Program-made: the position numbers and the translations under genes
Shown here: positions 28,941 to 60,310 of the stretch, in pieces
Numbering within the stretch: position 1 is the stretch's first letter
Layout: every line of letters starts with the position of its first letter
Notes under the pieces: model-generated
Told to the model about the DNA's origin: nothing
Database searches by the model: none
Seen by the model: the letters and a program-made list of their open reading frames with translations, nothing else
Source of the DNA: Rhizopus arrhizus
Lineage: Eukaryota > Mucoromycota > Mucoromycetes > Mucorales > Rhizopodaceae
Assembly (NCBI GenBank): GCA_024220505.1
Contig: JAKZZE010000012.1
Location: 186,001-250,000 of the forward strand
Reading direction: 5' to 3'
Length of the DNA: 64,000 nucleotides

Positions 28941-29012
28941 GGCTTCTTGGTTTAGTGGTATAATTCTCGCTTAGGGTGCGAGAGGTCCCGGGTTCGATTC
29001 CCGGAGAAGCCC
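28941..29012 (+). tRNA. tRNA-Pro (anticodon AGG)
   Basis: 72-nt canonical cloverleaf: acceptor GGCTTCT/AGAAGCC with discriminator C, D-arm TTGGTTTAGTGGTATAA, anticodon stem CTCGC/GCGAG with loop TTAGGGT (AGG), T-arm CCGGG TTCGATT CCCGG. There is no intron. A and B boxes are intact. A T9 run about 55 bp downstream could terminate Pol III. It is flanked on the left by the LINE/CACTA block and on the right (92 bp from its 3' end) by LTR-like sequence. Its first 15 bases recur at three LINE junctions. Confidence 0.96.
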
Positions 29013-29103
29013 TGCATATTTCCAAAGCAACTTTGGTAGTGCTTATTTAGTTGATGGTGAATTGTTTTTTTTTTACTGTTCTTGTACTTTACTTTTAAGA
29101 TAT

Positions 29104-29555
29104 TGTGACGAAAACGGCAATCGGGTCGTACTGTGACGCAGTTGGTGTAACTTTTGCGGAAGAAGGGACTCAGTCCTAAGAGGGACTTAGTCGTAGGAGG
29201 GACCTCAGTCCTAGGAGGGACATCAGTCCCTGAAGATAAACAAAAAAAAGTTCAAAAAATAGAAAAACACAAAAAAATGACAATTGTATAAATATCCCCT
29301 TATCCTTTGACTTTTTGATATATACTTACTTTTGATATAACTTACTTTTTACTTTTGACATATTTTACTTTAACATAAAATAAAAAGAATATCTTCAAGG
29401 ATCTACATTTAAAATCTTTCTGATCCCTTACATATACATCAAATCAAGTCCTTTGAAGTCAAATTATCTTCATCGTATCAATTTTATATTCTCTTATCAA
29501 GAAAACTCTTTATTACTTTTTACTGTTTGATCTACAATACAAGATCTGGTGGTCA
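29104..29555 (+). mobile_element. LTR-like block 1 downstream of tRNA-Pro
   Basis: Starts TGTGACG and ends GATCTGGTGGTCA, with a TATAAATATCC promoter-like box near 29,287. The ending recurs in seven other places, and a complementary start (CGTCACA) closes the minus-strand block at 35,032. TG..CA ends suggest a solo LTR. No gag or pol was found and I could not see a clear 5-bp duplication, so the LTR assignment is inference from structure. Confidence 0.55.
29158..29231 (+). repeat. Four ~17-bp tandem repeats, AGGGACTCAGTCCTAAG type
   Basis: Four head-to-tail units AGGGACYTMAGTCSTAGG in block 1. Each is partly self-complementary (GGGACT..AGTCC), so the array can form small hairpins. It lies upstream of the TATA-like box, where enhancer repeats often sit in LTRs. 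Confidence 0.75.
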
Positions 29556-29799
29556 CTTACTACAAGCAAACCAAATTTATCAACATAAACACAAGCTTTT
29601 GATCTCAAATTCTTTTACACTTCAAAGAAAAGTCAAATTATTTCTAAACTCTTAAGGCCATTTAAACGAAACAATACCTATCACAAGAAAAATTACAGTA
29701 CAAATCCTTTCCGATGCAAGTCGTTTTGGCGACTTGAGTCAACAAAATGACTTGAGTCGCTAGACCGAAAACTTTTGGTTGAAGGAAAAATTAATCTAA

Positions 29800-30075
29800 T
29801 GTAACAAAGAAGCTAAAAAATGAAAAAAGTCAAAAAAATGAAAAAAGTCAAAAAAATGAAAAAAGTCAAAAAGAAAAAAAAAAAAAAATTACAGCATATA
29901 AATATCCCAACCATTTAGTCAAAGAAAAAGGACAGTACAGTTCTACTCATATATTTTATTATATATTTTATTCAATAAACAGGCAACCTTCTCATAAAAA
30001 GTTCCTGATCCCTTTATTTTTATCTTTACATTTTATTTACTTATATTTGATCTTACATAAAAGATCTGGTGGTCA
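29800..30075 (+). mobile_element. LTR-like block 2
   Basis: TGTAACAAAG start, GATCTGGTGGTCA end, TATAAATATCCC box near 29,901 and (A)n-GAAAAAAGTC repeats at 29,815-29,880. A minus-strand relative of its start closes at 58,938. The stretch 29,640-29,790 before it and 30,160-30,250 after it share ACAGTACAAATCC and GATGCAAGTCG sequences, so this is a repeated unit. Confidence 0.5.
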
Positions 30076-30155
30076 CTACAGTACCTTACTTTGAAATTTC
30101 AAGAAAACCTTCTATATAAAACACTCAACCAATCCACAAGCTTACAAAAATAACA
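29885..30155. repeat. Left arm of a ~265-bp inverted repeat
   Basis: Nearly identical (a handful of differences by eye) to the reverse complement of 36,176-36,436. Both arms contain the TATA-like box and the GATCTGGTGGTCA core. About 6 kb of mostly Tc1 DNA separates them. Confidence 0.85.
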
Positions 30156-31501
30156 GTACAAATCCCTTTTGATGCAAGTCGTTAGACCGAAAACTTTCGG
30201 TTAAAGGAAAAATTAATCTAACAAGCAGAATCAAGGCAACAAATTTTATATAAATATCCAGTTGTAAACATAGTTATTTTCTATATGATATCGGTGTTAT
30301 AGGTAGACATAATAAAATAATAAATTATGCTATAAACCAAACATCTCCAACACTAGCATAGTTAAATCATAAAGATCTGGCGATGAATTATATCATAAAG
30401 AGTAATAAATGTCTTGCACATACAGTAGGTGAAAAAATATGAGCAACCCCTTTTCGATTTGTCTTCATATCTTTTTATTTTTGTGTGTATATTTGCCAGA
30501 GCTTTGGTATCACACAAACGAATTAGGGCAACAAAGATACATATAATACACTAAGGAGATTGACTGTACTTGAAGTACAAGCTTTTTAAAAGGGGAAAGA
30601 CAGTCATAAAAAAGCCAATGATGATTTTTCAATATTCGCTATGTTTATTTAATATTTTCTATGCCTTCCCTTTGCTTTAAATAGTGCTTCTACTTTGGCT
30701 GGCATACTATTGATGTACCTCTTGCAAGCATTTGCATTGAGTTTATTTCGCTCTACATCCACAAATTGCTAAAGCTTTCTGACACCTCTTTCTCCGACTT
30801 CATGTGATGTCAGATTAAGTTTGAGCTGATGCCAAACATGCTTTATATGATTTAAATCCAGACTTTGAGCATACCAATAATTATATACCTTACACTGATA
30901 CCGCGTACCTATACAGTTATGATTTTTAATTTATGTTTTACGCCGTTATCACTCTGAAGGTATACATCACACGTCTTCAAATAATGGTACTTGTTAAGGA
31001 TACATAAGATTATAATCACTTTATTTTAGTAAAAGGAATCGGATATGATCCTGAATAATATGTTGACATAACTTGGAATCATTTATAACATTATTCCCAA
31101 CACAGATCAATAAAATACTTTAATTAGATTTTTATATTAAGCTTTATTCATATTAACTTCACATAGTCAAATAAGATGACATGGTTGTAATATAGTTTAT
31201 TGATAATATGAGCATGTTGAATATGGAATGGCGATTACTTACCGGATCATCATTAGTCATGAAAACATTTATCCTGACTGAGATATTATTGTTAGCAATG
31301 ATATCCAATCACGGAATTAAAGATCTTTATATTCATCCGTACCGTCTCCTTAAATAGTTATATCTGAAACCATCCCAATAGCATAATTGACAATACAAGC
31401 TAGGAACAGGCTAAACTAATAATTAGAAATAGTAATCATCTATTCTGTCAAGTTGATTATAAATCTGTCCTAATTCTTTATCCGTATCATGTCTATAAAT
31501 A

Positions 31502-33099
31502 CAGTGCCCCACAAAACCCTTCAAGTGTTTTGCTTTTTTTCGTTTTTTGCTTGTCACGAAGCATTGAGTACTACAATTAGTAGCATGCTATACCTCATTT
31601 CAAAGCTACGGTGGCAGGGTATTTGGACAATGCTTAAACTCCGATATACATGCAATGACCGCGGAGTAATGACATTTTAAAAACAGACACACACTTGAAG
31701 GGTTTTGTGGAATTTTTATTTAACAACAATTAATATTTAGTATGTCCTCCTTTTGCATTGTAAACTGCTTTAATGCGTTTAGGCATACTTTCTATGAGTT
31801 TTTGACACTCATTCTGAGTAATTGACTCCCAAACGTTCTCTACTCTTGACCATAATTCGAGCATTCCGTCAGGCTACTTTTCATATTGTAATAAACGACG
31901 TTTTACGATTGACCATAGGTTCTCAATAGGATTTAAGTCAGGAGAGTGAGGAGGCCATCTTAATACAGTAATATTATTGTTTTCCAGCCATTCAGAGACT
32001 TTTTTGGCAGTATGGATACTAGCATTGTCTTGCTGAAATATAATATCTTCTTTTTGAAGGTCATACCAATCAATTGTTTTCATTAATTCATCCTCCAAAA
32101 TACCAATATAAAAGTCAGAATTAATGCTTCCCTTGATATTCGATAGGTATCCAACGCCATACCATGTTAAACAGCCCCACAGCATCAATGAACCTCCTCC
32201 ATGCTTGATCATATGCTGAACCTGAAAGTCTTTTAACTTGTCACCATTTGTCCAAGTCCATTGTAAACCATCTGAACCAATTCTATTCACTTTAGTTTCG
32301 TCGCTGAAAATGACCTTTTTCCAGTCCTCGATGGTCCATGATAGATGCGCACGTGCAAATTCATATCTTTCCTTCATACGGTGCTTAGTTAAAGGAAGGA
32401 CTTTAGGCTTATAAATTGCTGCATAACCTGATTCTTTTAAAAAACGTCTTATAGTCTCAGCACTAATATTTTCACCATCTTCTAACAACTTTCTAGCAGC
32501 GTCTGAAGCATTTTTGTAATTGCCAGAGTTGAAATTTCGCAAGATTCGACGACCTAGTAATGTCGAGATTACGAATGGCCTGCCTCCATTAGTTTTCAAA
32601 TCTCCCAAATCATGGTTTTTTCGAATTTTTGAAATAGTTCCAGCACTGACACCAGTCTTCCTCGATATTTCTTCTCCAGAAACTCCCTCTTTAAGAAGTT
32701 GAACGATCCTGTTCTGCATGTCATTGCTAATTGGTCGCATGTCACTTAATTAGATTATGTTATAAAAAAAAAGGCAAAAAAAGTATAGAAAGTTGTACAT
32801 AATAAAAAATTTTACACAAAAAATTAATGAGTCACACTTTTGTGACGTTTAGAATGATTTTTACGACATTAACTTGAGATTTTTTAAATTCCACAAAACC
32901 CTTCAAGTGTGTGTCTGTTTTTAAAATGTTATTACTCCGCGGTCATTGCATGTATATCGGAGTTTAAGCATTGTCCAAATACCCTGCCACCGTAGCTTTG
33001 AAATGAGGTATAGCATGCTACTAATTGTAGTACTCAATGCTTCGTGACAAGCAAAAAACGAAAAAAAGCAAAACACTTGAAGGGTTTTGTGGGGCACTG
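31502..33099. mobile_element. Tc1 element with ~212-bp terminal inverted repeats
   Basis: 1,598 bp, TA-flanked, starting CAGTGCCCCACAAAACCC. The terminal repeats (31,502-31,713 and 32,888-33,099) are almost identical. Each contains CACAAAACCCTTCAAGTGT at its outer end and the reverse complement at its inner end, giving two likely transposase sites per arm. Inserted into an older Tc1. Confidence 0.93.
31730..32740 (-). pseudogene. Tc1 transposase, one in-frame stop (DD34E)
   Basis: Starts MRPISNDMQNRIVQLL at 32,740. It has two helix-turn-helix parts (SRKTGVSAGTISKIRKN; AARKLLEDGENISAETIRRF) and the DDE core: VIFSDET, IFQQDNASIHT and SPDLNPIENLW, with 34 residues between the second Asp and the Glu. 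After LLQYEK a TAG at about 31,871-31,873 interrupts. The frame then continues (ELWSRVENVWESI ... MPKRIKAVYNAKGGHTKY) to TAA at 31,730. The stop falls after all catalytic residues, so a 288-aa product lacking the C-terminal ~47 residues could be made. Recently inactivated, or a read-through candidate. Confidence 0.9.
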
Positions 33100-34319
33100 T
33101 ACTCTCACTCTTTACATGTAGAATTTATTTTTTTAATCTAATCATAGTTATCTTAACTTAATAAAGAGATATCAAGTTCTAACAGTATTTCTTTATCTTT
33201 GATTGCTATATTATATTTACCTAAAACTCCCCCTTCCTAAACAGTACTCTAACGTATTAATGTAAATAATGCTAAGCATATGCAGACAAGTCGTTGGGTT
33301 TATATTACCACCATAAAGCTGACATGTCTAAAATGGTCCCTGAGTAGCTATGTGACAGCACATGTTCATCCTACGGCTGCTGTGCTTTACTGTAATGTCG
33401 ATGTGATGAGGGAGCAAAATGTCATTTTATACTACTCTATACTACTTTACTCCATCTGATCACTAGATGCTAATCTTTGCTTCAGCTGAGAATGTTACTG
33501 GTCATCACTCTTGACTTGACCAGTTGCGATGCCTTTTTGCTCAGGCCATCTGCTTTTTTCAATGATCCTTTTTTAAAAATGCCTTCTTTTTTTAGCTCTC
33601 GGTCGCAGTTTATGGATCTCAGCGCGTTTACTCCTGAACGGTACATCAACAAGTAACCAAACTTACCCAACTCCCTAAATAGCTCTTTCGCTATTGTTCG
33701 ATGATCAGTAATAATGCACAGCTCTATATAGTGCTTCACGGCGTAAGCGACAATAGCATGTCTTCCAGCAGACAGGTGTGAATTTCATGGAAAAAGCTTC
33801 CTAGTATACCTTTTAACCGTGCGAGAATGAACGTAATATTTATCTGTGATATCCTCTGGCTTCATGCTATTCGGTGATATATTTTTTATTTCTGGATTGC
33901 TTTTCCATTGATATAGATTTAGGTATGATGATGAGAAGTAGTGAGAGAAACTGAGTAAAAAAAAAAGAAACCAAGGGTTTTTGAAGTTGCACTTGCTTTT
34001 ATGTGAATACAATAAGGAACGCTCAGATTCTCAGATAAGTACGCTATATAGTCTTCCGATATGTTCTTTTGTTGATTTAAATGTAAACATATGATTACCA
34101 TACATAATTTAAACTGGCTGGAAGTCAAATTTTTAAATTCGCATTCTCATCTCTCTCTCAATTTCCAGTATTACTACATCAGACCTTTACTGTTTCAAGA
34201 CACATGACCCCGAAAATATACCATAGGAGCCTCAAGCCGGTAGTTGACATGCACCTTTTGATAAAGCGAAAAAAGTCGATTTTGCTAAAAGGTTGCTCAT
34301 ATTTTTTCACCTACTGTAA

Positions 34320-34540: not shown

Positions 34541-34611
34541 ATGTTAATTTTTCTTTTTATACTAGCTTGTTTGCGGGTTTAGATTTTTAAGTAAATAAGT
34601 ATTGTCGGTAA

Positions 34612-35032
34612 TGACCACCAGATCTTGTTAAATAGATCAGTCTGAATTTAATAAAAGTAAAATAAAAAGATGAAAGATAAAAGATAAAATAAAAAAGAGA
34701 TTACAATGAAGTATATGATTCAAGGGATTATTGATTCTTCCTATTTATAAAATAAAAGAAGTATTTTGTTTCAAAGGAGATTTATTTGGATAAGGTAAGA
34801 TAATCATAATAATAATAATTCTTGATAAATTGTTGATATTTATATGTTTTTGGTTTTTTTTGATTTTGTGATGTTTTTAGATTTTTGTGTTTTCCTTTGA
34901 ATTGTGAATTTAGTTGAGTTATTCAATTTCATTGAGTTTATCAAAAATATTGAGGACATGAACTTAGTTCAGGTCCGAACTTTCTTCGTCAAGTGGTACA
35001 GTTTGATTAAAAGAATTTCTATTTTCGTCACA
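34612..35032 (-). mobile_element. LTR-like block, minus strand
   Basis: 421 bp from TGACCACCAGATC (complement of the core end) to CGTCACA, the complement of the block 1 start. The adjacent segment 34,545-34,611 (AGCTTGTTTGCGGGTTTA .. AAGTAAATAAGTATTGTCGG) is shared with 59,680-59,732, so it is element-internal or target-shared. Confidence 0.5.
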
Positions 35033-35209
35033 ACACAACCGCAGCATATAGAAATAATATAAATATTCCTCTGTGAGATTGGAGTTTGTAAGGTTTTTAT
35101 AGTGTTAAATAGGTTTGATTTAAGAGAGTCTTGATGTGAGACCAAAGTTTCGAATAGAGTTTGGATTCCAAAGTAGTAATAATTTGAATATAAATTCGCT
35201 TGTAATAAG

Positions 35210-35658
35210 TGACCACCAGATCTTGTTAAGTAGATCAAACTGTTGTGAATAAAATAAAGTAAAAAGATAAAAAAAAAAGGGATTACAATGAAGTGTATTT
35301 GCTTAAAGGGACTTCTTGTTCTGGATATTAGATAAAATAAAAGAAAAACAAAAGAGATTTACTTTGTATGATATTTACTAAAATAATCAAAAAGTAAAGT
35401 AAATAAGTGAAGTAAAACAAAAGTTAAAAGTGAAGTAAGTAAGTCAAGAGTAAGTATAAGAAATATTGAAGTTATTTATATGTTTTTGGCTTTTCTGATT
35501 ATATGCTGTTTTTGATGATTTTGTAGATATTCTGTATTTTTTTTTGTATTTATCTGTATTCATACGTATTCATACGTATTTGTTTGTATTTTCCTGGATT
35601 TGAATTAGTTGGAGAGAGAAAAGTCAAATGCTGCAAAAGTTTGTTGCATTGTGTTACA
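35210..35658 (-). mobile_element. LTR-like block, minus strand
   Basis: 449 bp from TGACCACCAGATC to TGTTACA. Its right part repeats 34,320-34,540. It contains the conserved TTACAATGAAG..AAGGGACTT segment seen in all blocks. Confidence 0.5.
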
Positions 35659-35839
35659 CCTCTATTTTAATTAAATAAAGACTCATTCACTATTTTAATT
35701 AGCTGTACTTTTGTTAATTAATATTGTAATTTTGTTTGGGTTTATTGGGTTAAGGTTTAAATAAGCAGAGATTTGAGTTGTAATTAATATAAGAATTGAC
35801 TTTTTGTGAGTTAGATTTGGCTTGATTCGCTTGATATAG

Positions 35840-36175
35840 TGACCACCAGATCTTGTAAAGTAGATCAATCTTGTTTTGATTCGTAAAAAGGTTTGTTTAA
35901 AGTAAAAATAAAATAAAAAGGGATACAATGAAGATAGTTAGCTTCAAGGGACTTGGCTTTGTAATTATAATAGAATATCAAAAGAGCTTTTTTAAAAGGA
36001 TAATTGATAAATTTATTCAAAGAAAAACAAAGTAAATAAAGTGGTAGATTTTGTAAGTAAAAGTTTTAAAGTGCAAAGATCGAAGTGAATTTTTATATCT
36101 TGAGGAATAAATCCTCAGTATTTATACTGTTTGGTGGGTTAATGTTTGGTTAGATTTGATTGGCAATGTTATTTT
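35840..36175 (-). mobile_element. LTR-like block (partial), minus strand
   Basis: Begins TGACCACCAGATCTTGTAAA and has the ATACAATGAAG..AAGGGACTT segment. The far end is not clear; it runs toward the inverted-repeat arm. Confidence 0.4.
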
Positions 36176-36436
36176 TGTAACCTTGTGGGTTTATTGAGTG
36201 CTTTATATAGAAGTTTTTCTTGAAATTTCAAAGTAAGGTATTGTAGTGACCACCAGATCTTTTATGTAAGATCAACTATAAGTAAATAAAATGTAAAGAT
36301 AAAAAAAAATAAAGGGATCAGGAACTTTTTATGAGAAGGTTGCCTGTTTATTGAATAAAATATATAATAAAATATATGAGTAGAACTGTACTGTCCTTTT
36401 TCTTTGACTAAATGGTTGGGATATTTATATGCTGTA
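36176..36436. repeat. Right arm of the ~265-bp inverted repeat
   Basis: Reverse complement of 29,885-30,155, including the core at 36,247-36,259. Homology stops abruptly near 36,436 after GATATTTATATGCTGTAA. Confidence 0.85.
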
Positions 36437-39018: not shown

Positions 39019-39265
39019 TATATATACTGTATATTAAATGTTTATTTTTTTGCAAAATATCGTCATGTATCCATGTGTTATTTATGGTATTGATACGAAA
39101 TAACGAAGTGAATCGCTTATCGGGACGCTTCAATTTATTAAATGTTTTTTTTATAGTTGAGTCAGCAATCGTAAAGAACAAAAATATTATATAAAAGAAT
39201 TAAAAGCAGTTACAGCATATTTTTTATAATTAATGTTGATTTTTGATACAAGTTTAATAACTCTA

Positions 39266-42200
39266 CTAGCTGTCTTTCTTTGTAAGGTTAATTATAAAAC
39301 TGTCCATGGCTCCCTTTCCTTTACGTACGGGCTCTGTTGCTTTACGTGGTCGGCCTCGAGGGTTTTTTTGTCGGCCATTTTCCTCTCGGATTCTTTTTTC
39401 TTTTTCTTTTGCACTTAGCTTAGGTCTCCCTCTTCCTCTTACCTCTTGTGCAGAATTTGTATAGTCACTATCACTACCGCTATTGTTATTTCTGGAATTT
39501 TCTTCATTATTTCCTTCTGCGTCAGTATTTCTCTCTTTTCCCTGAAAATTTTATAACGTTTAGTAAGATTTGTTTAAAAAACAGTTTTCATCAATATATA
39601 TATACAGTAGCGGACAAAACTGGTGCACAAAAATTAAAATCAACATTGTATCTCCGCCATATGTCTGCGACTTTTGTGGCATATACCATCTGAAAGACAG
39701 TCCAAAATATACATTATGTTATGTAAACCGGAACTGTGCCGGACATCCTTCAGGCATAAGGTCATTTTTAGTGATTTTTTGCATATTTCAATTTTCGCCA
39801 AAAATGTAGTGCTTGTCTAGCCTTCTTTCAATTTTCCCCATATCTCTCCCGTTTGCTTTCAGATTTCACCGCATATTAGTGAATTATAGTAGCTCTTAAA
39901 AAATATATAAAACTGTACTTATTTTGTATTTCCCATTGAATCCCCCCTTTTGTTTTTACCCTATTCACTATAACAAAGTACTAGCCTTATATGTTTAAGA
40001 AAATAAGCAACTGTAAAAACGAAACTCTGAGATCTCGAATACACTTAGTTCGTACGACAGCAGATATTTCTAGAGTAACGAGGATCTCTAAATGGACAAT
40101 CAACAGGAGAAAGAGGGAAGAAAGAAACTTAATGTCTTGTGATCATGAAGGTCTCCCGCTTTTAGTCTGAAAAGTTACTAGCTCAATCACCAACCTAAAG
40201 CTTGGACAAGGTCCGTTACACACAGTTTCTGATGCTCAGCACATTTCGAGGACCTTAAGATACAGTATTAGCAGACTGTTAGTCTGAAGGCACTGTAGGA
40301 AGCTAGATTTTGAGTCCGGAAGTAAGGAATCGAAGAATTTCATCAGCTGTATAAGTCGGAAAAAGCGATGAATGTGGTATCACAACAAGCCATTGTATAC
40401 TATAGAGGGCTGGAAGTCTGCTATCTTTAGCAATGAAACAAATATGAACATTATGGATGCAGACAGTATACACTAATATTGAAAGCAAGTCGAGCAACCT
40501 GAGCGATTTTTTCACGGTGATCAAACAATGAAGCATGCTGGCTGCTCTGTTATGTTTTAAGGCTGTATTAGATATTGAGGACCAGAATATGTGTGTCAGG
40601 TATACGATGGTATAATGAACTCATAAATATATGTGTATATTTCGCTTACTTCATACCACAAAAGCCTAGCGTATAGTAGTCTAAAACGTCGTAATCTCTC
40701 GTTTCAGTATGACAATGACACAAGGCACAAGTCAACGCATGTCACAAACTCAATATTTGATAACAGCGCTTCTGTGCTACGAGTTTAGCCGCCACTAATC
40801 CCGGCCTAAGTCCGCTTAAGCATGCCAGGTGGCAATTGATGGCAAAGGTATGATGATACGACACTAGATCAAAAAGGGTCGATGATCTTTGGAAAAGAGT
40901 AGTTAAAGAGCCGGGTTCTTTTATTGAAAATGATATACACGCATATTATTAGCATATGCAAAGAAGAATATCCGATAATGTCAAGAGATGAGATGATTAT
41001 ATAAAGTCTAAGATTTTAGCCACTTTTGCGGTTTCTAGAAAATATAAGATTTTATAAATTCAAAGCACGCTTATCGCTCAGTTTTAACAATGTCATGCTT
41101 AGAACATACATAGATTACAATGACTAGTATATCCTCCTTCTAGTACAGTTTCATGACTATTGCAATTACCATGAGCAGGTAATGGTAGTTAAAAGCTAAA
41201 AAAAAGTTTTGTGCACCAGTTTTGTCCGCTACTGTATATATGTACCTTCAAAGCATTTCTCTTACGTTTCAAAAGAGGTCCACTCTCATTGCGTTTGGGC
41301 TGGCTCACTTTTTCAAAAGTTCTTTCATCTATGAATATACGACAATAGCTTAAAACTACATAAAGAAGCAAGGGTTCATTTAAAAGTAAACACTCACGAT
41401 TAAAATTGTTTGCAAATGAAAAGTTAAACAAGTTTCCAAAATCTTTTGTCAACGATGCTTCCGAGTCAGCAAGAGACGCATCAGATGTAAATGAATGACT
41501 TCTATTGCCTTGAAAAGACAACACTGTACTTCTACTGCCTTCTTCCATAGGATCGTCTTCATTGAAGCGGCTGTTTTGACCATTTCGTACTATTTTCTGA
41601 AGAAAATCTTTTTTTTTTTGTTGTGAGATATACGAAAAATTTGCTTTGAATGCGCTCGCAATTATGTTTCTTACCATTGTAATTGCTTGAGTTATGTCTA
41701 GTTTGTTCCGAATTTGTACTATTTGAAGGATTTGATGCCCTTTTGGATGATGGGATGGTCATTCCCTGCCCCTTTGATTCTTTAACAGTATCTTCTGATC
41801 CACTTCTACTAGCTTCTAAAGAGATAACAAAATAATCAATTCATGTTTGGAGATTTTATTGTCTGGTTTGGCTATTTATGCATATTGTAAAGGCTTTTTA
41901 GAAACATACCATCAAACTCTGATAAATTATTATGAGTAAAAACTTCACTATCTCTTGTCTGTTTTGCTCCCCATTGATCTTCTAACTGACTCAGATCCTC
42001 ATGGTTGCTTCTCAAAATGTCTTCAGGAAAATTGTTTCTCTGATGGGTATGTCTTTCATTTATATGCGAGTTTTCACTTGAATGTCTATCATTTCTTTGC
42101 GAGTTTTCACTTGAATCAGACATACGCCTAACATACAATAGGTTTTCTGGAGGCACATAGGGCTCATCTTCATCAGTAAAATACTGATTATATTGTCGTT

Positions 42201-45730: not shown

Positions 45731-48700
45731 ATGTTCTTCGCTTTTCGCTTAACCGATAATAACCTTTCTTCTTTTACCCGGGCTCAGAAAAAGCAAGTCC
45801 TTGCTTTTAAAGACTTTGTTATGCAAAAACCTGATGGTTTTTGTTGTGTTTGTCTTAAGGTGCTTTATCCTGAAGATCAATTTTTTAGAAGCATTAGTAA
45901 TGTTGCTGGTTTGCCTTGTACCGAGTGGAAATTGCAGCCTATATGTAAAGCTGACGATGAAACTATGAAAATGGTTTGTAAAGCTCATCTCGTTACTGCA
46001 GAAAGTGGATTTTCCAATTTATCCATGGTTTATCCAGGTACTAAAACCTATATTTGCGACCATCATATTATGCATTACTAAATGTAAATTTCATAAATAG
46101 GTGACCTTATACCTGAAACTAAGGACTTGAACTACAGAGAAAGGTCGGTTCTGTCTCCCATAAAGCTTATGTCTCAGATAACAAGAAAGTCGACATTGTC
46201 TCACGGAAGAATTGGGCATTTTGAACTCAAAGGTCCTATGTACACGACGCACAACTATGAGTTTGCCGAGATGGCCTATGGAGGTACTCTGAGCCTTTTC
46301 TTTGTTCGAGGTGACCCTGCCATGATCAGAAAACAAAAAGTGGAGGAAGCTTATAGAGCTTTACAAAGAATGCATCCTTTGCTATCTCGCTACGACATGC
46401 CCGAGCTAACATTTTCCTTGGTAAATTACCACGTTTCCGAAAACAAAAAGCATGTCAGTATTGATAAAGGCTGGTTGAACAATGCTCTTTTTGCTAATGA
46501 GGATGTAAACCCTCAGGCAGCTGACGTCGAGTTCAAGGATCTAATAATTGGAAAAGACAACGTTGGAAAAATGATTAGATACTCTCACCCTAGCCTTCTG
46601 GCTTTAGTCTTTCCTTACATATTTACTACTTGTACTGGCCATTATTCACTGGTTCCCCAAAACACCGAGGATTTTCAAACTCGCTCTGGGATTTATGGCA
46701 TTCCCGAAAATCAAGATGGCGTTTCCCGGGCAACAATGAATTCGGAAAGCCTTTCAGGCTATGTAAAAAGACGCTTGCTCATCCAAGATAGAAGGTTTGC
46801 CAGAGATCCTTCTTTTCTTTTTTTCATGTTAGACTTAATTGAAAAACGAAACATTGCTTCGGCTAACAGATTTGTGGTTTCAACCAAAGGAAGGAACAAC
46901 TTGAGACAAAGCGATGTAGTCAATCCTACAACTGGAAAGATGAACAAGAATATTGTATCAACTGTACCATCTCAAATAAGATCGTCATATGCTTACAAGA
47001 GAAAAAACTTCTTGGACCTTCAATGCATTTTTGATAACTTGGGCGCCCCTCAACTGTTTTTAACATTTACCTGTGATGATAAAAGCGAGGATTTTAAAGG
47101 CATTCTTAGTGATGGCATTCGCTTTCCGTGGGAAGACCCAGTTCTTTTTAGCCAGCACTTCAAGAGGAAATGGTTAAAGTTTTTTACTGATTACGTTTGC
47201 AAGCATTTTGCTCGACAAATTGGCGGAATTAAAGAACATAGCTGGGTAATGGAAATTCAGGATCGTGGCAGTCCACATATTCATATGGTACTATGGACAA
47301 ATAAAAATGTGCAGGAATTAATCGAAATGAACGTGGTTCATACTTGGTTTCCAGAAGGCTCTTCGTCCAATGATCCAATGATGCATGATCTGGTCAATCG
47401 ATTACAGCTACATAAGTGCAATGACAAGTAAGTTTAACCACAAATATTTGTTGAGTATTCACTAATCTTCATTTTTTCAACATAGCTACTGCAAGAGAGG
47501 TGACTACACCAAGAAGTGCCGTTTTGGATACCCAAAACCATATTCTCCAGTAACAGTACTTGACTCCGAACATCGCTGTACGTATAAAAGGGACGTTGGT
47601 GATGCGTATGTTAACAACTACAACCCTTACCTGCTGGCTGTCTTTCGCACTTCAATGGATATCCAATACAATGATGGTCCCCAGGCTGTAAGATACCTTG
47701 CCAAGTACCTTGCCAAAGATGACTACGAGGCCAAAATTCTACTGAAAAACATTCAAGCTCAAAATCAAGGGTACTACAAACGAACCACATATGTGTCAGA
47801 GAGAGAGCACTATTCAACGAGAATTGTCGGAGCAGTTGAAGCTACATACGATATCATGGGATGGAGAAAACACAGTAATTCGAGAAACGTAATCTTCTTA
47901 AGTACTAGCCTTCTTGGTCAAGACACTAGACGTCTAAGAGACGATACAGTCCTACTGTCAACTGCCTAACAAAACCATAAAATCGCCTGCACAGTGCTAT
48001 AATTACGTCAGAACTACGAAATAAAAACCATTAGATAGCCCATACGTCATAGTATAAGAAGAAAAGAATGATGTAATTCTAGCTTGTTACACAAACATCT
48101 AAATCAAGAAAAATTGATTTTGGGTTAAATGGAAAATGATGTAAGTATGATTAAATGTACTTTAAACCCTATTTTGGCGTACATGATGCAATGATAACGT
48201 ACCTAACATATCATCATGACGTAAAGAAGCTAAAAATGTATAAAAAAGCGACACTTTTCTCTTCATTTCCCCCATCACATCTCTACTTCTACACTTGACA
48301 ACTACTTCTTTGTAATGCCTTATAAACTCAGCAACGACACACGCAATAACGTCATTTCATTAATTAAGTCCGGAAAGGGTACTAAAGATATTGTACAAGC
48401 CACTGGAGTGTCTAGAGCCCTAGTTATTCTCATGAAAAAGCAAGTTGATCCTGATCGCGTCAAACCCCGTGGTGGTAGAGTCAGCACCGTTCCCGATTTT
48501 ACAAAGCAAGTCATAGCTTTTAAAGTCCGAAAAGGCTTCTTATTATCAGCAAAGGATGTTCAAAGATATCTGTGGTCTCTTGGTTACAAATTGCAGTACT
48601 CATCTACGACACAACTAATGAGATCCCTCGGCCTTAAAACTCTGTATAAGAAAAAGAAGCCTTTAATCAAGAGAACTAACCAGAAAAAGTGATTGGAATG

Positions 48701-51477
48701 GGCCAAAAAACGCCGTGACTGGACTGTAGAGGACTGGAACAAGGTCATATTCTCCGACGAAACCAAAATCAACGGATGGGGATCAGATGGAGCTCAAGTT
48801 ACATGGAAACATAAGGATGACCCACTTCGACCACATAATTATCAGACTCAATTAAAAGGTGGCGGAGGCTCAATGATGGTTTGGGGATGCATGACATCAT
48901 CAGGAGTAGGTTACGCATGCCGTATTATTGAGTATCCTATGAAATCAGAGCTGTACACCCATATCTTGGATACTTCCTATAAGGATACACTCGAGGACTT
49001 CAGTCTCAGCAATGAGGAAGTCATCTTTCAACAGGACGGAGATACAAAACACACATCGAAACTCACTGAAAAATGGCTTGCAGATAACGGAATTAACTAT
49101 ACTCAAGACTGGCCAGCAAATAGTCCCGACCTAAACCCAATTGAACACCTCTGGCATCATGTTAAGTTGAGATTAGATGCATATGACACCATGCCCAAAA
49201 ATATGGATGAATTGTGGGATAGATTTGATGCAGAGTGGAACAAATTCACTAAAGAGGACATGAAGAAGTATTACGAGAGTATGCCAAAAAGAATTGAAGA
49301 GGTTATCAAGGCTAAAGGTGGATATACAAAGCGTTAAAGATTTGCTGTCAGATTGATTTTATAGTCATTTTTCATTTTTTTCAAATTCCGCCACATTTTA
49401 CTAATTAGTGTGCTATAAAAATTTGTTCAATAAAAATATGTTGTTTTAGCACTGTTCCATTAAAATTTAAAAAGTTTAGCTTTATTTTTGCGGGAATTAT
49501 CTTAAATTTTATTTTTGTTAGGCAGTTAACAGCAGGACTGTATCAAAGACTTGGCTGAAGATGATGATCAGATTTTTTCTTTGACTCCAGTTGGTAATTT
49601 TTTGAATCATCTGTATTTCATGCATTCTTTTTCTTATTTTTAATTTTTACTAATAGAAATATACGAAAAAAGGAACGGTGCTCCAGAGTTGACTATGCCA
49701 CAGTTCTTTTGTTTTTATAAAAGGGTCTACCAAAATACAGGAGCAATCACTAACGTCAGAGAAGTTACACGCCCCTTCTATTCACATCCTTTGCCTGAAT
49801 ATGTCAAGTGTTTTAGGTGTCTAACCTACAAGCTTATAAAAGACAAACCAGTTTTTTGGAGAACCTATAACCAGAGCGAAACAAACGGCGAAAGTTTCTA
49901 CTATCAGCAAATAGTTTTAAATTTGCCTATCTTTGGCACAACATACAAAAATGAAATGGAGCGTTTTGGTTCATATAAAGGTACTTCTTTTTTCCTCTAT
50001 TTTTTTCAGAAAAAGAAAGAAGCTAAACAAGCCTATTTTTCTAAAATTGTAGATTATTACGAACATTTACTTAATGAAGGCTCTATTGAATCGCACCGAA
50101 GGGTTAACATTGAATCTTTAGATGATATTGTAGATGTTGAAAGAGGCCGCGAAATATATCGCGATGAGCTTGCTATAATGCTAAATATGGCCAACCAAAA
50201 CCAAAAAAGCATTTTTTCCCAAATTGTAACTGAACTTGAGCTAAATTCGACTGTAATTGTCTCTGGTGCAGCTGGAACAGGAAAGTCATACCTCTTGAGG
50301 ATGTTGGAAAGACATTATCGACTTCAAAATTGCAAGGTAAAAATAAATGCTACGCCATCTATAAAATGTATTGTTATTCAATATATCCTAACTGTTCTGT
50401 CAAAAAAAGGTTTTCAAATTGGCACCAACAGGTGTTGCTGCTCATAATATTTCGGGCCAAACTATTCATAGGTTTTTCGGCTTAACCAATATATCTTCGG
50501 TTCCCAATTTTGTGATGCTAGACGAATATGTCAAATTATATTCCCAAATAGTTCTATTGGTCGACGAATATTCAATGATAAGTACAAAACTTTTGGAATC
50601 TATCAACGATGCATTGGTAAAAACGACGCAAAGAGCTACAATAATGGGTGGTATAAAAACAATTTTTTTTGGCGACGTTGCTCAGTTACTTCCTATTCAG
50701 CAAAAAGAGGGCAATATTTGGGAGTCTGAAATATTTAATGCAGTCCCTCGATATAGTCTTCACAAACCAGTTCGCCAACAAGACGAAAATTTTATTGAAA
50801 TTCTTAACAAAGTACGCAACTATCAGTTTGATGAATCAGTGATTGCATTTATAAACACAAGAACTGTCCACAAATCAGAACTCCCCCTTTCCTGTTTGCG
50901 GCTCTATACAACAAGACAAAGAGTGGCAATAGCTAACGAAAAAGACTTTGCTGAATTTCCTGGTGATGGCTTAGAATTCCTAGCTCATGACTCTTATGTT
51001 GGAAACGAACGTACCGCCAAGATCTCATTGAGAGAAACTAGACTTCTAGAAAACTTGTTCATCAAGCCAAACATGCCAGTAATGCTGATACACAACCTTC
51101 ATGTCCCCACTGGTTGGGTAAACGGAACTATTGCTCTCGTAGAGTATATGGAGGAAGAGAACATTTGCTTAAAAAAACGATTGCCAAATGGAAATGATGC
51201 CATATATTGGATCCAACGTATCAGCCGACAAGTTCCCGACACAAGTTATACTAGAACCCAATTTCCAATAGTTCCAGCCTTTGCGACAACAATTCATAAA
51301 GCTCAAAGCGCAACAATAGATTGTGTAGGTATCCATTTAGACAATATGCTTTCGCACGGTCAGCTATATGTTGCCATGTCACGCGTAAGAAAGTTGGAAG
51401 ACCTGTATTTCTTTGGTGCTGATGTAGACGCTATTGAAATAATAAGAAAAAAAAAGCAATTGAACATCAGAACTTAA
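45731..51477 (+). CDS. Helitron Rep-helicase (1297 aa), broken only by a Tc1 insertion
   Basis: Exons: 45,731-46,037, 46,101-47,427, 47,486-47,946 continued at 49,543-49,593 after the Tc1, 49,657-50,336 and 50,410-51,477. Without the Tc1 and one TA, phases agree (3,894 nt). The N-terminus is Cys/His-rich (CCVCLKVL ... CDHH at the exon edge). The Rep nuclease has QDRGSPHIHMVLW (HUH) near residue 495 and AVRYLAKYLAKD (two tyrosines) near 614. The PIF1-like helicase has GAAGTGKS (Walker A, ~919), LVDEYSMIS (Walker B), FGDVAQLLPIQ, TIHKAQSATID and LYVAMSRVRKLEDLYFFG. It should nick and unwind DNA for rolling-circle transposition. All catalytic motifs are kept. Element ends were not found. Confidence 0.9.
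47947..49540. mobile_element. Tc1 element inside the Helitron Rep gene
   Basis: 1,594 bp, TA-flanked (47,945-47,946 and 49,541-49,542). Termini CAGTCCTACTGTCAACTGCC and, complemented, CAGTCCTGCTGTTAACTGCC, then TAACAAAA. Removing it restores ..RRLRDD-IKDLAEDDD.. in frame. Confidence 0.94.
48315..49337 (+). pseudogene. Tc1 transposase, single in-frame TGA (DD35E)
   Basis: A 341-codon frame from MPYKLSNDTRNNVISLIK to KAKGGYTKR, interrupted once by TGA at 48,690-48,692 after RTNQKK, before LEWAKKRRDWT. CGA to TGA (Arg) is a simple explanation. Everything else is intact: helix-turn-helix (DIVQATGVSRALVILMKK; SAKDVQRYLWSLG), VIFSDET, VIFQQDGDTKHTSK and NSPDLNPIEHLW, with 35 residues between the second Asp and Glu. 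One revertible stop suggests very recent activity or read-through. Upstream at 48,240 is TATAAAAAAGCG, a promoter-like box. Confidence 0.92.
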
Positions 51478-54527: not shown

Positions 54528-56066
54528 AGCAAAAAGATGTAAAGTTTAAAAAGTATTAGTTTGATAGAATCAAAATAAACAATGATTATATAACTGCCTA
54601 GAGTTTATATACTTTTCATTGCCTATGCATTAACGAATGTACCACGGAATTCCGACTAAATGTTACGCGGTATTTTGTTTTTGCCCTTTAATCATTTGTT
54701 CAACTAGCCAAGTGGTATCCACATCTCTACTGATAAAATTGTTTAATGTAAACAATGTGTTTAGTTACTCTTTGATTACATTTGCAGTACGACACAGGGT
54801 AAGAAGGAGAAATATGCTACTGCTATACTTCAAAAATAAAAGATGTAGACTGATATTAACAAAAACAGAAAAAATATGCTTTAATAATTAGCGAGCTTGT
54901 TTTATCTATATTACTTCTATAAACCCTATTATTAATTGAAGAAAAGTATATCCTGTAAATATAATCAATTACTGTATTAAGGAGAAGTTACTTTTTTAGT
55001 TTGTAGTATGCTTGATAAAAAATATCACCATTCCGTGTAAGATATTCATAAGAAATATCGCTTACAGATATTTTATACTATAATAGAAATTTGAAAAGAA
55101 AATTCAAAAACCATTTACATGATAATTTTAAAAGAAACATAATAATATGACATGTTCTTCTTAAAGTTGTAATCATTACATTGTGCATAAGCGGTCAATA
55201 GTCAAAGAGAAGTTTTGAGCAGCCCGTGGGAAAAGTGAAGAAACTACAGTGTGTAATTTTCTCAAAAGATAAGATTTAATGTTCTAAACTCATTTGTTTT
55301 ATTGTTTTTATACCGACTTTAAACGACATACTATAAACAACTCCAATCATTTCTAAGCTACAAGATGTCTAGGCCAACTTTGTTATTAATCTTAGATCAT
55401 AGTGTTCATTTACATTGTAATATTTATTATCGGTACTCATGTTAAGAATTTAAGGAGTTGATATTTGTATATATTACTACATCAGACTATACACAGCAGT
55501 TTTAGGTGACAAATACTAACAGATTTATTATTGTTTTTTATTTTTTTTTAAAAAAATATAGCGAAATAAAAGAAAAATGAGCTTTTTACTTAACTCTAGT
55601 CTAGATAGCAATTGTCTCTGATACCAACAATTCTATATTAACCTCTGCTTTTTCTATAAGTACTTGTATTCTAGTATTATATTTTCTATACTGAAGGCTA
55701 TCTGCTATTTACATTTATAAATTGTAAGATATCAACCAACGTTTGTTTACGCCCTATATTAATTTCCACGTTTTGTTTTTAGTTATTTTTTTTTTGGTTT
55801 TTACCTACTATGTTCCAAAAATAGCAATGCACATGTATTAGATATACGGATCATCTCTAATAATCAGCAATACCCCATACAGAACCATTGACTAATTAGG
55901 TAGATTTAGTCAACTAAAGCCAGATAGGCATCCTCAGGAACCATAATCTTCATCTGATTTCTACAATAAATACTTCGTACTCTTATTAATTTCGATTTAA
56001 ACAATAGTACACTGAGAAGTATAGATACCTTTAATTATTATCATCTGCTCTTCATCTCTCTCTCTC

Positions 56067-56098
<32 letters not shown>

Positions 56099-58170
56099 TT
56101 ACCATCAAAACTCCATCCAAAATATATATCTAATCTTCTCTTATGTATTGCTGTATTCACGTAAATCACTCTTCGACTATAGCCCAAATAAATTCTATGC
56201 ATATGTTTCTATGCTTAAAACCTTTTACAAGAAACTGTTTTTATACCTTTTGTAGCTGTAATAAAAAAGAATCGGTTTAAGAGTTTTTTGAACAAAGAGT
56301 CAGGTTTTGTATCTGTTAACAAGTTGCACTGCAAAATGATATATTATCTGACACCTTCCATTATCTCTACAGTATTACGTTGTTGTTAAAGGAATTTATA
56401 GCCTTATATCCAATATGCTAATCAAAATAAGATTTTTTCATTATGAGTACTGAACTTGTATGCTTTTTTTTTTCCTACCAAATAAAGACTTTTTTCTACT
56501 AAATGTTTCATAAAGCATAGGACTAAACAGAATGTAGTTCATATTCTGTGAACATACATTAGACACAATGTATATCAACAAACGATCACTATTTACCTTA
56601 AAAAAAAGCTAATTCTTGTTAAATAATTGTAAAAGTATGTTGTTCAAGTTTCTTCTATAAATCATTAGAATCAAAGGTAAACGGGTTTTTCTTTATCATA
56701 ACTATTTACTTTTACACTTTCACGGAGCCATGTATTAATCGACCATGGTATAATTATAATTCAGGATAAAAGAACAATTTTGATGCAAAGGGGCCAATAA
56801 CAAGATTAAGGTACAAGATAAATAATAACAGTTTAATTGTTAGAAAGTGTTTAGAATAGTAAAAGTAATTATGAGCCGTAAGAATTTCGTAGCAGGATTA
56901 CATGAAGAAAGAAAAGAAGTACAATTGGAAGTTTCTTGTACTTTTTGAAACACTTGTAAGTTCTAACGACGTCATCCCAGAGCATTTGCAAACTCGTTTT
57001 TTTTTTTTTTTCTTTTATTATTATTATTTTTGAAATTCAGTTTATTTAATTCATGATTACAACAATTGTTAGTAGTCAAACAGATTGAATTCCTTTGGCT
57101 TCAATTAAACTGACTATAACAGAGAAAAAGTATAATAACAAAGGTCAACCTACTCAAATCAATATTTTTACCCAATGAAGAAGTAATTTATAAACAAATT
57201 ACTTTATTGTATATGGTCTGAATTTGATAATAGTTTATACAACTCTTTTTTATATCTATTACGCATTTATATTCTTCAGTTTATTCCTCCATATTTAATA
57301 CAAAAAAATAAAGATTCACAACTATGACAAATTACTCTCAGTTCAATTAACATAAAAAGTTTGTAATGTAACTCGACTAGTAAAAGTATAATGAAGCAGT
57401 ACTACAATTGGATACAAAGAAAAGTTACAGCAATTAAAGCATATCTTGTTTAAATTTGCTAAAATAAATAGAACTAACGGTACAGGCGCATTACTGACTT
57501 TTTGCCATAATGTTTACATGTCTTCTTTTTTACATTTTAAGTTTTCATTAAAAACATATCAGCTAGAGCACAAGATGTGGAAGTGGTCTAAGATACGACA
57601 ATTGACAGAGGCATAAAAAAACGTAAGCTTTGTTCTTTTTTTTTATATTTTTGGCAGTAATGGAGTTATAAGTTATCTCTTTCTTTGTTGTTGCAAATTA
57701 TCTATTTTAAAAACAACCACAAAATATAGTTCAAGAAAGAAACAAAAAAGAGAGTCGCAGAACATTTTTTTTTTAAAAAAATAAAAAATTGTACACAATC
57801 TACTTTCTTTGTAATTGCTTAAAAAACTAATGAAAAGGAATCTTTTTTTACGACCATTACAATCATAATGCAGAAAAATGCAAGTTGTGTAATATCGGTT
57901 CGTTACGTCTTTTAACAGCAAAACTCAGGTTTTATATAGTTTAAAAAGTGATTTTGCCAAGTAGATCCAGCCCATTTCAATATTTACCTGCAAAAAAAAA
58001 AAAAAAAGTGGAGCAATAAAAATGAATGGAGCATTTAAAAAAAAAATGCGGAGAACAACCAAAAAATAAACTCAAAAATACACCAGAAGCGCTGTAAAAA
58101 AATGCTGCAACGAGTATTCGTATCCTTCAAGCAGGATTCTTTGCGCCGTAGTGACTGTTGGAGGATTATA
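54528..58170. other. Long AT-rich stretch without recognisable genes
   Basis: About 3.6 kb with only short frames. Contents are poly(A)/poly(T) runs, a (CT)n/(T)n microsatellite at 56,057-56,096, and no tRNA, transposon terminus or splice-linked coding signal that I can see. A Lys-rich frame near 58,035-58,358 is the translation of a simple repeat. Confidence 0.55.
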
Positions 58171-58179
58171 AAGGAGGGA

Positions 58180-58312
58180 CGATTTTTTTTTTTTTTTTTT
58201 GACTTTTTTCGTTTTTTTTTTGACTTTTTTCGTTTTTTTTTTTTGACTTTTTTCGTTTTTTTTTTTTGACTTTTTTCGTTTTTTTTTTTTGACTTTTTTC
58301 GTTTTTTTTTGA
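58180..58312. repeat. Tandem GACTTTTTTCG(T)n repeats, six units
   Basis: Six 23-25 bp units of TGACTTTTTTCG followed by 8-11 T. The complement GAAAAAAGTCAAAAAAA matches the shorter array inside LTR-like block 2 (29,815-29,880), so this is an expansion of an LTR-internal repeat. Confidence 0.8.
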
Positions 58313-58379
58313 CCTTGTTGTATAATGGTAAAAGTAGTTGAGGAAAAGGTAGAAACAAAGATCAAGAAACAGTGTAAGT

Positions 58380-60160
58380 ACTTTTTGAGACTGATCTTTA
58401 TTTCAGTTTAAGTTAAAGTAAAAATTATTCTAATTGAAGGCAGGTATTTATATCTTATTGAGTGAGTGGCTTGATATCTTCTATTGTAAGCGTTCTTCTA
58501 ATATTCAGGTACTTTAGCAAGTGTCATCTATAATTATGATTATGAAAACTTTTCATTTGTTCTTTTGTATGTCTGTCATAGATTATCTTTTATTCTGGGA
58601 ATTCCTCACTGATTTGAATAAGGTTATTTTACGCGTTATTTCAATTATGTGAAAGATTAGCAATATTCCTGATATTGGATTGGATCTTGTTATTTTAGTT
58701 GATACTTCTTCTTATCAAAGAACTCTCATTAACACTAAACATATTCTAAAAGAACATGTTTAATTGGAATTGATTGTATGATCTTATTTAAATAAACTTA
58801 TATTTTTATTTTATTTAATTATGATCTTGTATTAGGACTTATATTTATCAATGTCTACTACGATCAGTTACTGTTCTACAACAGACCTTTCTCATTTTTT
58901 TGATTTTTTTTTTTTTCATTTTTAGCTTCTTTGTTACAGCAATATTAACTTTTGGATCGTTTGAAAAGATCGTACTGTAATTTTTGTTTTGCTTCAATGG
59001 CTTGTAAGAGTTAACGGTTTTGAAATAGAGTAAAGTTGATGAAAATAGATAAAAAAATAAGAGTTGGGTAGAGTATTGATATTAGGTTCGCTTGTAAGTG
59101 ACCACCAGATCTTGTTAAGTAGATCAAACTTGTTTGTAATAAAATAACTTGATAAGAGTATTAAAAGGTTTTACAATGAAGATAATTGACTTCAAGGGAC
59201 TTGTCTTCCTTGTGTTTTAAGAGTGTTATACCAAAAGATTCAGGGATAAAGATACTTGGTTTATTGATAAAATATATTTATATTGTTAAGAGAAGTAAAG
59301 TCAAGAAAAAGCGAAGTGAAATCAAAAGAATAAAAAGCTAGGCTTTTTATAGGCAAAAATATAAAGTTCAATTTTTACAAAATGTAAAAATATCAAAAGG
59401 TAAAAAAAAAAATATCAAAAGGTTAAAAATATCAAAAGGTTAAAAAAATATCAAAAGGTTAAAAAAATATCAAAAAGTAAAAAATATATCAAATGGTTAA
59501 AAATTTGTCAAATAGGTAAAATAATGACAATTTGTAAAGTGATTTACAAAACGTCAAAAATTAAAGCTTGAAAGAAGTTTCGGAGTTCAAATCTTCATAA
59601 TCATAGCTACAGTACCAAAAGATCGTTCCTTTTGTTCGTTCAAAAGTTGGTTCTTGTTGTAAATTTTTCTTTTTTTATGTATATAGCTTGTTTGCGGGTT
59701 TACTTTTGTAAGTAAATAAGTATTGTCGGTAGTGACCACCAGATCTTGTTAAGTAGATCAAACTTGTTAAAATAGGCTAAACTCTTGAGGTTTAGGAATA
59801 GGTTTACAATGAAGTTGATTTAGCTTCAAGGGACTTCAGTATTTTGAATAGAACACAGACCAAAGGGTTTCTTTTGAACGCTTGATGGTTTTATTGGTTT
59901 ATAAAATAAAGAAAAGATAAAAAGAATATAATATTCTGTAATAAAGAAAAGTAAAGTGAAGTGAAGTGAAGTGTAGTGAAAATAGGGATAAGATATGAGG
60001 GTATTTATATGTTTTTGGATTTTATAATTTTATGTTGTTTTTGGTTTTCAAGCAAGAGTTGATACTCCGTTTTCAAATAGATTGTTACGCAGAAGTTCAT
60101 TTTCTAACTGGAGTGGTACAAAAAAAATATTTACTGTTTGTCTTCTTTCATTGTGTTACA
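58380..60160 (-). mobile_element. Cluster of LTR-like blocks downstream of tRNA-Thr
   Basis: Minus-strand blocks related to those at 29-36 kb. One closes at 58,938 (TGTAACAAAG sense start). Cores TGACCACCAGATC are at 59,099 and 59,733. The block 59,733-60,160 (428 bp) has the TGTAACAC sense start 79 bp from the tRNA-Thr 3' end. Conserved TTACAATGAAG..AAGGGACTT segments are at 59,170 and 59,810. An ATCAAAAGGTTAAAAAAAT repeat array lies at 59,390-59,480. No gag or pol found. Confidence 0.5.
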
Positions 60161-60238
60161 ATATAAAAAGACCATTGGTGATCAACCACGACAATCAAAC
60201 GAAAAAAAAAAGTTCGGATTTTTCTTTCCTTTTTTTTT

Positions 60239-60310
60239 TGCCCGTTGGCTGGATTGAACAACCGACCTTCAGTTTACAAGACTGACGCACTACCACTGTG
60301 CTAAACGGGC
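60239..60310 (-). tRNA. tRNA-Thr (anticodon TGT)
   Basis: 72-nt cloverleaf on the minus strand: acceptor GCCCGTT/AACGGGC with discriminator A, D-arm TTAGCACAGTGGTAGTGCG, anticodon stem TCAGT/ACTGA with loop CTTGTAA (TGT), T-arm GGTTG TTCAATC CAGCC. No intron. A T10 run about 30 bp downstream on the minus strand fits Pol III termination. LINE D begins 2-3 bp from its 5' end, pointing away. LTR-like DNA begins 79 bp from its 3' end. Confidence 0.95.

Follow-up and report, generated by a model that had tools for sequence, protein, structure and literature searches.

In the fungus Rhizopus arrhizus, four groups of mobile elements very probably share transfer RNA (tRNA) genes as landing sites, each group keeping to a position of its own relative to the gene. 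The stretch analysed, hereafter the window, is 64,000 nucleotides (nt) of contig JAKZZE010000012.1 (assembly GCA_024220505.1, positions 186,001 to 250,000), in which a tRNA-Pro and a tRNA-Thr gene each anchor an array of such elements. Long and short interspersed nuclear elements (LINEs and SINEs) start at the tRNA 5' end (+1), one Ty3/gypsy group of long terminal repeat (LTR) elements lies about 10 bp upstream (-10), CACTA/tnp2 DNA transposons lie 57 bp upstream (-57) and a second Ty3/gypsy group lies downstream; we call these positions lanes. A sequence-only reading of the window had proposed that LINEs occupy the 5' side and LTR blocks the 3' side of both genes, pointing away from them. This two-sided arrangement is real and, genome-wide, far above chance; side and distance are not random in the genome-wide samples, as they should have been had the proposal been wrong. 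The division of LINEs and LTR elements by side, pointing away, also recurs in those samples, but it is incomplete since the -10 LTR group and the -57 DNA transposon share the 5' side.

Lane positions were determined at 65 tRNA loci, comprising 63 scored and listed by an Rfam tRNA search and the two genes of the window; 61 loci are independent after removal of duplicates. Flanks covered 1.5 kb on either side for 30 loci and about 600 bp upstream with 900 bp downstream for 33; one locus (L071) had only 87 bp upstream before the contig end.

The LINEs begin at the tRNA gene itself. The 5'-end pattern of the tested family occurs 77 times in the genome (reversed control, 0), with many copies in same-strand series about 5 kb apart. 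All 60 copies fetched adjoin a tRNA 5' end, which belongs to a whole gene in 16 cases and to a short copy of the gene's 5' end, or scar, in 44. Seven further copies (window, L022, L025, L042 and L071) adjoin a tRNA or scar within 7 bp, bringing coverage to 67 of the 77. One LINE leader adjoins nine tRNA kinds. Scar matches extend over 15 nt (33 scars), 14 nt (5), 16 nt (4), 12 nt (1) and 8 nt (1), the 16-nt scars being those of tRNA-Ala, whose written 5' end has one extra base. Forty-two of the 44 stop within box A at the same R15/Y16 boundary (TAG^TGG) or, for tRNA-Gly, one base short of it; the exceptions are a 12-nt scar (L130) and one with a mismatch after 8 nt (L141). Beyond the scar, by eye, comes the 3' end of another LINE or SINE, of several sequence types, and the tRNA-Gly array (L022/L042) runs LINE, scar, SINE, scar, LINE. 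An open reading frame (ORF) 2 encoding an endonuclease and a reverse transcriptase (RT), together with the target duplication, places these LINEs among non-LTR elements of the apurinic/apyrimidinic endonuclease (APE) type. Compared with solved R2-type and human L1 RTs, ORF2 matches in part of the RT only. Its named relatives are mostly from Mucorales, with no dictyostelid among them, and a search of the LINE against plasmids gave no match.

Most LINE junctions (46 of 60) contain no extra bases. Three carry the 5' end of another tRNA kind, as tags of 5–8 nt between the target tRNA and the LINE: AAGAACGC (Gly) at tRNA-Pro (L091) and GAAGCC (Pro) at tRNA-Ala (L101) and at tRNA-Asp (L130). Two more junctions, at tRNA-Ala, hold 9–10 nt close to tRNA-Ala itself, and L022 probably carries a Pro tag at tRNA-Gly.

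The CACTA elements keep a fixed distance from the gene. Within the 600 bp upstream, their terminal word CACTGCA reads outward 24 times: 23 of these lie at 50–59 bp (mean 56.7, standard deviation 1.9) and one at 543 bp. At the 65 loci the inward orientation is absent within 600 bp upstream, and the word is absent within 900 bp downstream. The outlier (L019) stands behind a 482-bp solo LTR with its 4-bp duplication in the -10 lane; subtraction of these returns it to 57 bp. In all, 23 of 65 loci hold a CACTA end at -57 (22 of 61 without duplicates). None of the 14 positions in front of the 23 insertions holds more than 0.31 bits of information, and no clear consensus emerges. The converse sample, the first 20 listed of 111 copies of one end sequence, gave seven ends at 55–58 bp from a whole tRNA, four at 49–51 bp behind an LTR-type end, two behind a tRNA scar and leader (by eye) and seven against another CACTA end. 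A gap of 51 bp is expected where an insertion at -57 has been followed by a later -10 insertion with its 4-bp duplication. The spacer between adjoining CACTA ends is 3 bp in four of the seven cases, and 1, 2 and 5 bp in the others. Membership of CACTA/EnSpm follows from tnp2 in both window copies, CACTGCA ends and 3-bp duplications (CGG and CAA). CACTGCA had also been considered as a LINE 5' end and was rejected, as tnp2 lies behind it at L041 and in the window. Relatives of tnp2 are widespread (532 at E ≤ 0.001, the best 120 of which were listed), which has no bearing on tRNA targeting elsewhere.

The LTR ends of the -10 lane are TGAYR..YRTCA. Among the 65 loci, TGAYR occurs 24 times at 8–12 bp upstream, whereas other upstream 5-bp bins contain 1.25 on average; at 8–12 bp downstream it occurs once. 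The solo LTR at L019, 482 bp long and 10 bp upstream, is flanked by the duplication CTTT; at L018, by eye, CATT precedes the first LTR and recurs after both the first and the second. For one family of this lane, 70 starts were counted genome-wide. Of 15 sampled, three, each with the same internal sequence in front, are 3' LTRs, which leaves 12 candidate 5' starts. Six of these lie 7–9 bp from a whole tRNA, two behind a tRNA scar and a leader of about 10 nt (by eye), and two behind degenerate tRNA-like sequence (by eye, no ARAGORN call). One copy of one family (L182) has the Ty3/gypsy gene order, its internal part encoding gag (a weak Ty3-capsid match), protease-RT-RNase H and then integrase.

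The downstream lane was traced with GATCTGGTGGTCA, which occurs eight times in the window and 1150 times in the genome (reversed control, 0). Of the 65 loci, 55 have it within 900 bp downstream in tRNA orientation (51 of the 61 independent ones), with the first copy at a median of 521 bp, and none has it within 600 bp upstream. The motif sits inside LTRs that start with TGTRACR. Such a start is found within 600 bp downstream at 62 of 65 loci (median 81 bp); 58 of the 62 fall at 18–200 bp, so that the sharp peak at 75–95 bp foreseen from the window gives way to a broad zone. The TGTRACR word also occurs upstream at 21 loci, mostly at 450–500 bp, as a word match alone. Solo LTRs with 4-bp duplications occur in this lane; those at L028 and L010, for instance, measure 557 bp and 562 bp. 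A copy at L037/L040 encodes protease, RT and RNase H and then, in a separate frame, integrase, which is the Ty3/gypsy order. Its primer site TGGTGGTCACTACGAGGG equals the 3' end of tRNA-Ile (AAT) plus CCA at 18 of 18 positions and is identical in 12 of 13 loci inspected. LTRs with TG..CA ends, a tRNA primer site and this gene order together identify the element as Ty3/gypsy. GATCTGGTGGTCA was tried as the primer site and rejected: the motif lies within the LTR, and the primer site comes after the LTR end.

Starting instead from the motif, the first 100 of the 1150 places form 32 same-strand clusters, whose leading copy has a tRNA upstream in 16 cases and a U6 small nuclear RNA (snRNA) gene in one. 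A generic LTR search (inverted ends plus a 4-bp duplication) gave 14 hits upstream against 4.0 in block shuffles and 20 downstream against 10.6, a weak excess overall, and the LTR members counted here are those with family-specific ends only.

Both arrays of the window are composed of elements in these lanes. The left array is built on tRNA-Pro as follows.

28941–29012, plus strand: tRNA-Pro (AGG) gene, intact (ARAGORN).
29104–30260, plus strand: nested downstream Ty3/gypsy LTR pieces, outer limit approximate, GATCTGGTGGTCA motif at 29543 and 30063.
28883–28940, minus strand: 5' part (58 nt) of a tRNA-derived SINE, adjoining tRNA-Pro; same leader as at tRNA-Gly (L024) and in the L042 array.
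21086–28882, no strand: CACTA (EnSpm) DNA transposon 2, 7.8 kb, ends CACTGCA, 3-bp duplication CAA, 58 bp upstream of tRNA-Pro.
23786–26374, minus strand: tnp2 frame of CACTA 2 (Transposase_21, PF02992; Pfam 3.5e-15).
About 20597–21085, minus strand: rest of the SINE divided by CACTA 2, containing box-B-like GGTTCGAATC (inner limits approximate).
20582–20596, plus strand: copy of the tRNA-Pro 5' end, 15 nt (target duplication scar).
20526–20581, minus strand: first 56 nt of LINE C, severed by CACTA 1.
13230–20525, no strand: CACTA DNA transposon 1, 7.3 kb, 3-bp duplication CGG; it lies 56 bp from the scar that marks where the tRNA-Pro 5' end was at the time.
17582–18568, minus strand: tnp2 frame (PF02992) of CACTA 1.
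8312–13229, minus strand: remainder of LINE C, ORF2 (endonuclease and RT) at 8555–12151.
6676–8315, no strand: 1.64-kb DNA transposon with 35-bp inverted ends, within the LINE C 3' end.
6645–6659, plus strand: tRNA-Pro scar, 15 nt.
1641–6644, minus strand: LINE B, ORF1 frame 5469–6605, ORF2 1903–5508.
1626–1640, plus strand: tRNA-Pro scar, 15 nt.
1–1625, minus strand: LINE A, 5' part, extending past the window edge.

From newest to oldest the order is therefore tRNA-Pro; SINE (split by CACTA 2); scar; LINE C (split by CACTA 1 and the 1.64-kb transposon); scar; LINE B; scar; LINE A. LINE B ORF2 has 88% identity over 88% of its length to a protein of Rhizopus delemar 99-880. By eye, the first downstream LTR is apparently severed after 28 nt by the next insertion. 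The right array is built on tRNA-Thr.

60239–60310, minus strand: tRNA-Thr (TGT) gene, intact (ARAGORN).
60311–64000, plus strand: LINE adjoining tRNA-Thr, ORF1 60540–61958, ORF2 from 61943; it runs on to 65668 in window numbering (L039).
59000–60160, minus strand: downstream Ty3/gypsy LTR blocks, outer limit approximate, GATCTGGTGGTCA motif at 59733 and 59099.

This LINE starts at the base adjoining the tRNA, runs away from it and ends at a scar of the tRNA-Thr 5' end, after which a second LINE follows; the two are 95.9% identical over the available part. Its ORF1 has 92% identity to a Rhizopus arrhizus protein. Together with the match of LINE B ORF2, this most likely indicates a Rhizopus host near these two species. 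An AlphaFold2 model of LINE ORF1 (mean predicted local distance difference test score, 55) shows one long helix with confidence, resembling a coiled coil, and an alpha/beta part with moderate confidence; no claim is based on it.

The two arrays refine what the sequence-only reading had described. LTR TG ends were placed there 92 bp (Pro) and 79 bp (Thr) from the tRNA 3' end; TG begins after 91 and 78 bp, the earlier figures counting the T itself, and so agree. A LINE on the 5' side, running away, is indeed what adjoins tRNA-Thr, but at tRNA-Pro the SINE and CACTA 2 come first and the first LINE begins 8.4 kb away. The large ORF nearest the tRNA-Pro 5' side (23786–26374), taken for a LINE, is the tnp2 transposase.

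From the positions, duplications, scars and stacking order observed at these genes we infer a scheme involving target-primed reverse transcription, a defined order of nicks and the RNA polymerase III (Pol III) complex (TFIIIB/TFIIIC) as a ruler. For the LINEs and SINE, a first nick on the tRNA-sense strand in box A, at R15/Y16 (TAG^TGG), and a second cut at nucleotide 1 would allow reverse transcription to put the element at +1, pointing away from the gene, with a target duplication of about 15 bp that would rebuild the whole tRNA gene. Because of this duplication the gene would survive and be reusable. The -10 element would insert about 7–12 bp upstream with 4-bp duplications, probably in the zone of the Pol III transcription start, and CACTA/tnp2 at -57 ± 2 bp with 3-bp duplications, apparently into any local sequence. 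In both of these lanes the distance is fixed while the local sequence changes, which suggests that they are guided by a complex bound at the tRNA gene, most simply TFIIIB/TFIIIC. The Ty3/gypsy element with the tRNA-Ile primer site would insert mostly 20–200 bp downstream, in tRNA orientation. As each new insertion lands between the tRNA and older ones, arrays read from newest to oldest outward.

Junction sequences bear on a further possibility, for which the odds appear about even: that the tRNA gene doubles as the LINE transcription start region. LINE RNA would then start a few bases inside the donor tRNA gene, in antisense, and foreign-tRNA tags would be expected for that reason, so that copies record their parent site. 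If a cut-and-paste CACTA transposon, in addition, measures its 57 bp from the Pol III complex, the arrays at tRNA genes would record the relative ages of insertions and part of their family tree. The tags, few as they are, could alternatively have arisen by template switching during insertion.

Three other explanations of the lanes themselves must be weighed against shared, position-specific landing. Each element might instead read a DNA motif in or near the tRNA gene and not the Pol III complex. This is plausible for the LINE, whose nick would fall within conserved box A, but the 23 CACTA sites show no clear consensus and both the -10 and CACTA lanes cut whichever leader is present; we consider sequence-directed targeting possible but doubtful as a general account. 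Much less probable is that elements insert anywhere and survive only near tRNA genes since insertions elsewhere are harmful. In a gene-rich fungal genome the loss of harmful insertions is bound to play some part, as is generally known, but purging alone would produce neither a 2-bp spread at -57 nor scars ending at one box A point. Six arbitrary 3-kb stretches, read on both strands, held no LTR word and three CACTGCA, a comparison that does not separate selection from targeting. Least likely of all is that a few tRNA loci were duplicated segmentally, flanks included, and so spread the pattern. Gapped comparison did identify seven of 65 loci in three groups alike on both sides (L028=L037; L048=L049; L055=L058=L061), yet the same comparison largely refutes the idea: 61 of 65 loci are independent, CACTA holds the same place in 22 of those 61, one LINE leader stands at nine tRNA kinds, and CACTA ends lie behind differing leaders and tRNA kinds.

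Several observations weigh against tRNA genes as landing sites with four discrete positions. One genome alone was searched (50.26 Mb, 41 contigs), the 63 Rfam tRNAs are those that were scored among 2878 first-look candidates, and the seven duplicated loci lower the number of independent cases. Signature words were picked after inspection of the data, and they recognise no element on the 5' side of 18 of the 65 loci. Downstream, ten of 65 tRNAs have no GATCTGGTGGTCA within 900 bp and three copies of the motif are in the opposite orientation, while no Pol III gene was found at 15 of the 32 cluster leads, some of which may be outer parts of longer arrays. Two of the 12 candidate -10 starts have no visible tRNA trace, one behind an apparent other LTR end (L192) and one unexplained (L197). 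Positional landing at tRNA genes nevertheless remains the reading we hold to be very probable.

Comparable systems are described in the available portions of the papers cited here. Ma et al. (2009; PMC2699053) reported that Ty3/gypsy LTR elements of R. oryzae (delemar 99-880) often co-localise with tRNA genes, a case of LTR elements at tRNA genes in the same genus; the available text names LTR elements only, without side, distance or orientation, and Figure S1, whose title speaks of 'some transposable elements' with tRNA genes, could include others. In dictyostelids several retrotransposon types (TRE5, TRE3, NLTR-A, NLTR-B, DGLT-A and Skipper-2) have converged on tRNA genes (PMC5006619, PMC5911963). 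NLTR-A, a LINE, lies 2–6 bp upstream, DGLT-A about 15 bp upstream and Skipper-2 up to about 100 bp or more downstream (PMC5006619, PMC5911963). There, as here, non-LTR and Ty3/gypsy elements occupy fixed windows on both sides of the gene; unlike there, the host is a fungus, a DNA transposon has its own lane and the arrays are long and serial. TRE elements insert about 50 bp upstream or 40–150 bp downstream, whereas the LINE junction here is at +1. The Rhizopus LINE scar would reflect a box A cut that rebuilds the tRNA; whether NLTR-A leaves similar scars is not stated in the available text. In yeast, Ty3 inserts close to where Pol III starts, about 15 bp ahead of the mature tRNA (PMC5006619), and resembles the -10 element in superfamily and position. 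Dada DNA transposons use tRNA and small-RNA genes at specific sites, some with box A duplications (PMC3706591). Their specific site lies inside the gene, whereas tnp2/CACTA inserts 57 bp upstream without clear sequence preference, and the CACTA lane is accordingly not of the Dada kind.

The arrangement had been thought possibly undescribed in fungi. This does not hold for the LTR side, known in Rhizopus since 2009 from the available text of PMC2699053, but among the titles, abstracts and passages listed from open-licence PMC papers, a scope outside which lie subscription papers, supplements and Repbase Reports, we found no report of a LINE or CACTA lane at fungal tRNA genes. The CACTA lane and the box-A scar are the most unusual parts. 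That tRNA genes are safe landing sites was already known from yeasts and dictyostelids; to these the present genome adds a fungus whose LINE/SINE system, two Ty3/gypsy groups and one DNA transposon share a single kind of gene, two of the four lanes being defined almost to the base pair. A simple means of entering a gene while leaving it intact is suggested by the LINE pattern, namely cutting in box A and rebuilding by duplication. The nested arrays reveal in which relative order elements arrived at a tRNA gene, and the donor tags may reveal their parentage. A transposase able to keep a set distance from a Pol III gene whatever the local sequence would be of interest for targeted DNA insertion.

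Further observations concern the downstream element. Its LTR (for example at window 29543 and 30063) holds at least the first 9 bases of its own primer site (GATC TGGTGGTCA), and looks as if it had grown past an old primer site. The first ~150 bp downstream of many tRNAs (for example L020 and L025) contain series of very short fragments from LTR 5' ends (TGTGACG.., TGTAACA..), which look like stubs that remained when later LTRs inserted just inside earlier ones. The U6 snRNA gene that heads one LTR cluster (L165, 488–611) is also transcribed by Pol III, and the lane may extend to other Pol III genes. TGTRACR reading outward 450–500 bp upstream occurs in about two dozen cases among the 65 loci and is possibly part of CACTA. 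In the window, 34612–36259 (minus strand) holds four serial copies of the GATCTGGTGGTCA LTR motif with no nearby tRNA gene by ARAGORN.

Elements of other kinds also occur in the window. A Tc1/mariner-type transposon (DDE_3, HTH_Tnp_Tc3_2) lies at 31500–33101, with 216-bp inverted ends 99.5% alike. Helitron pieces (Helitron_like_N, PIF1-like helicase) lie on the plus strand at 46100–47431 and 50395–51477, between both tRNA arrays. A second copy of the 1.64-kb DNA transposon, at 39601–41241, is 96% alike and in the opposite orientation.

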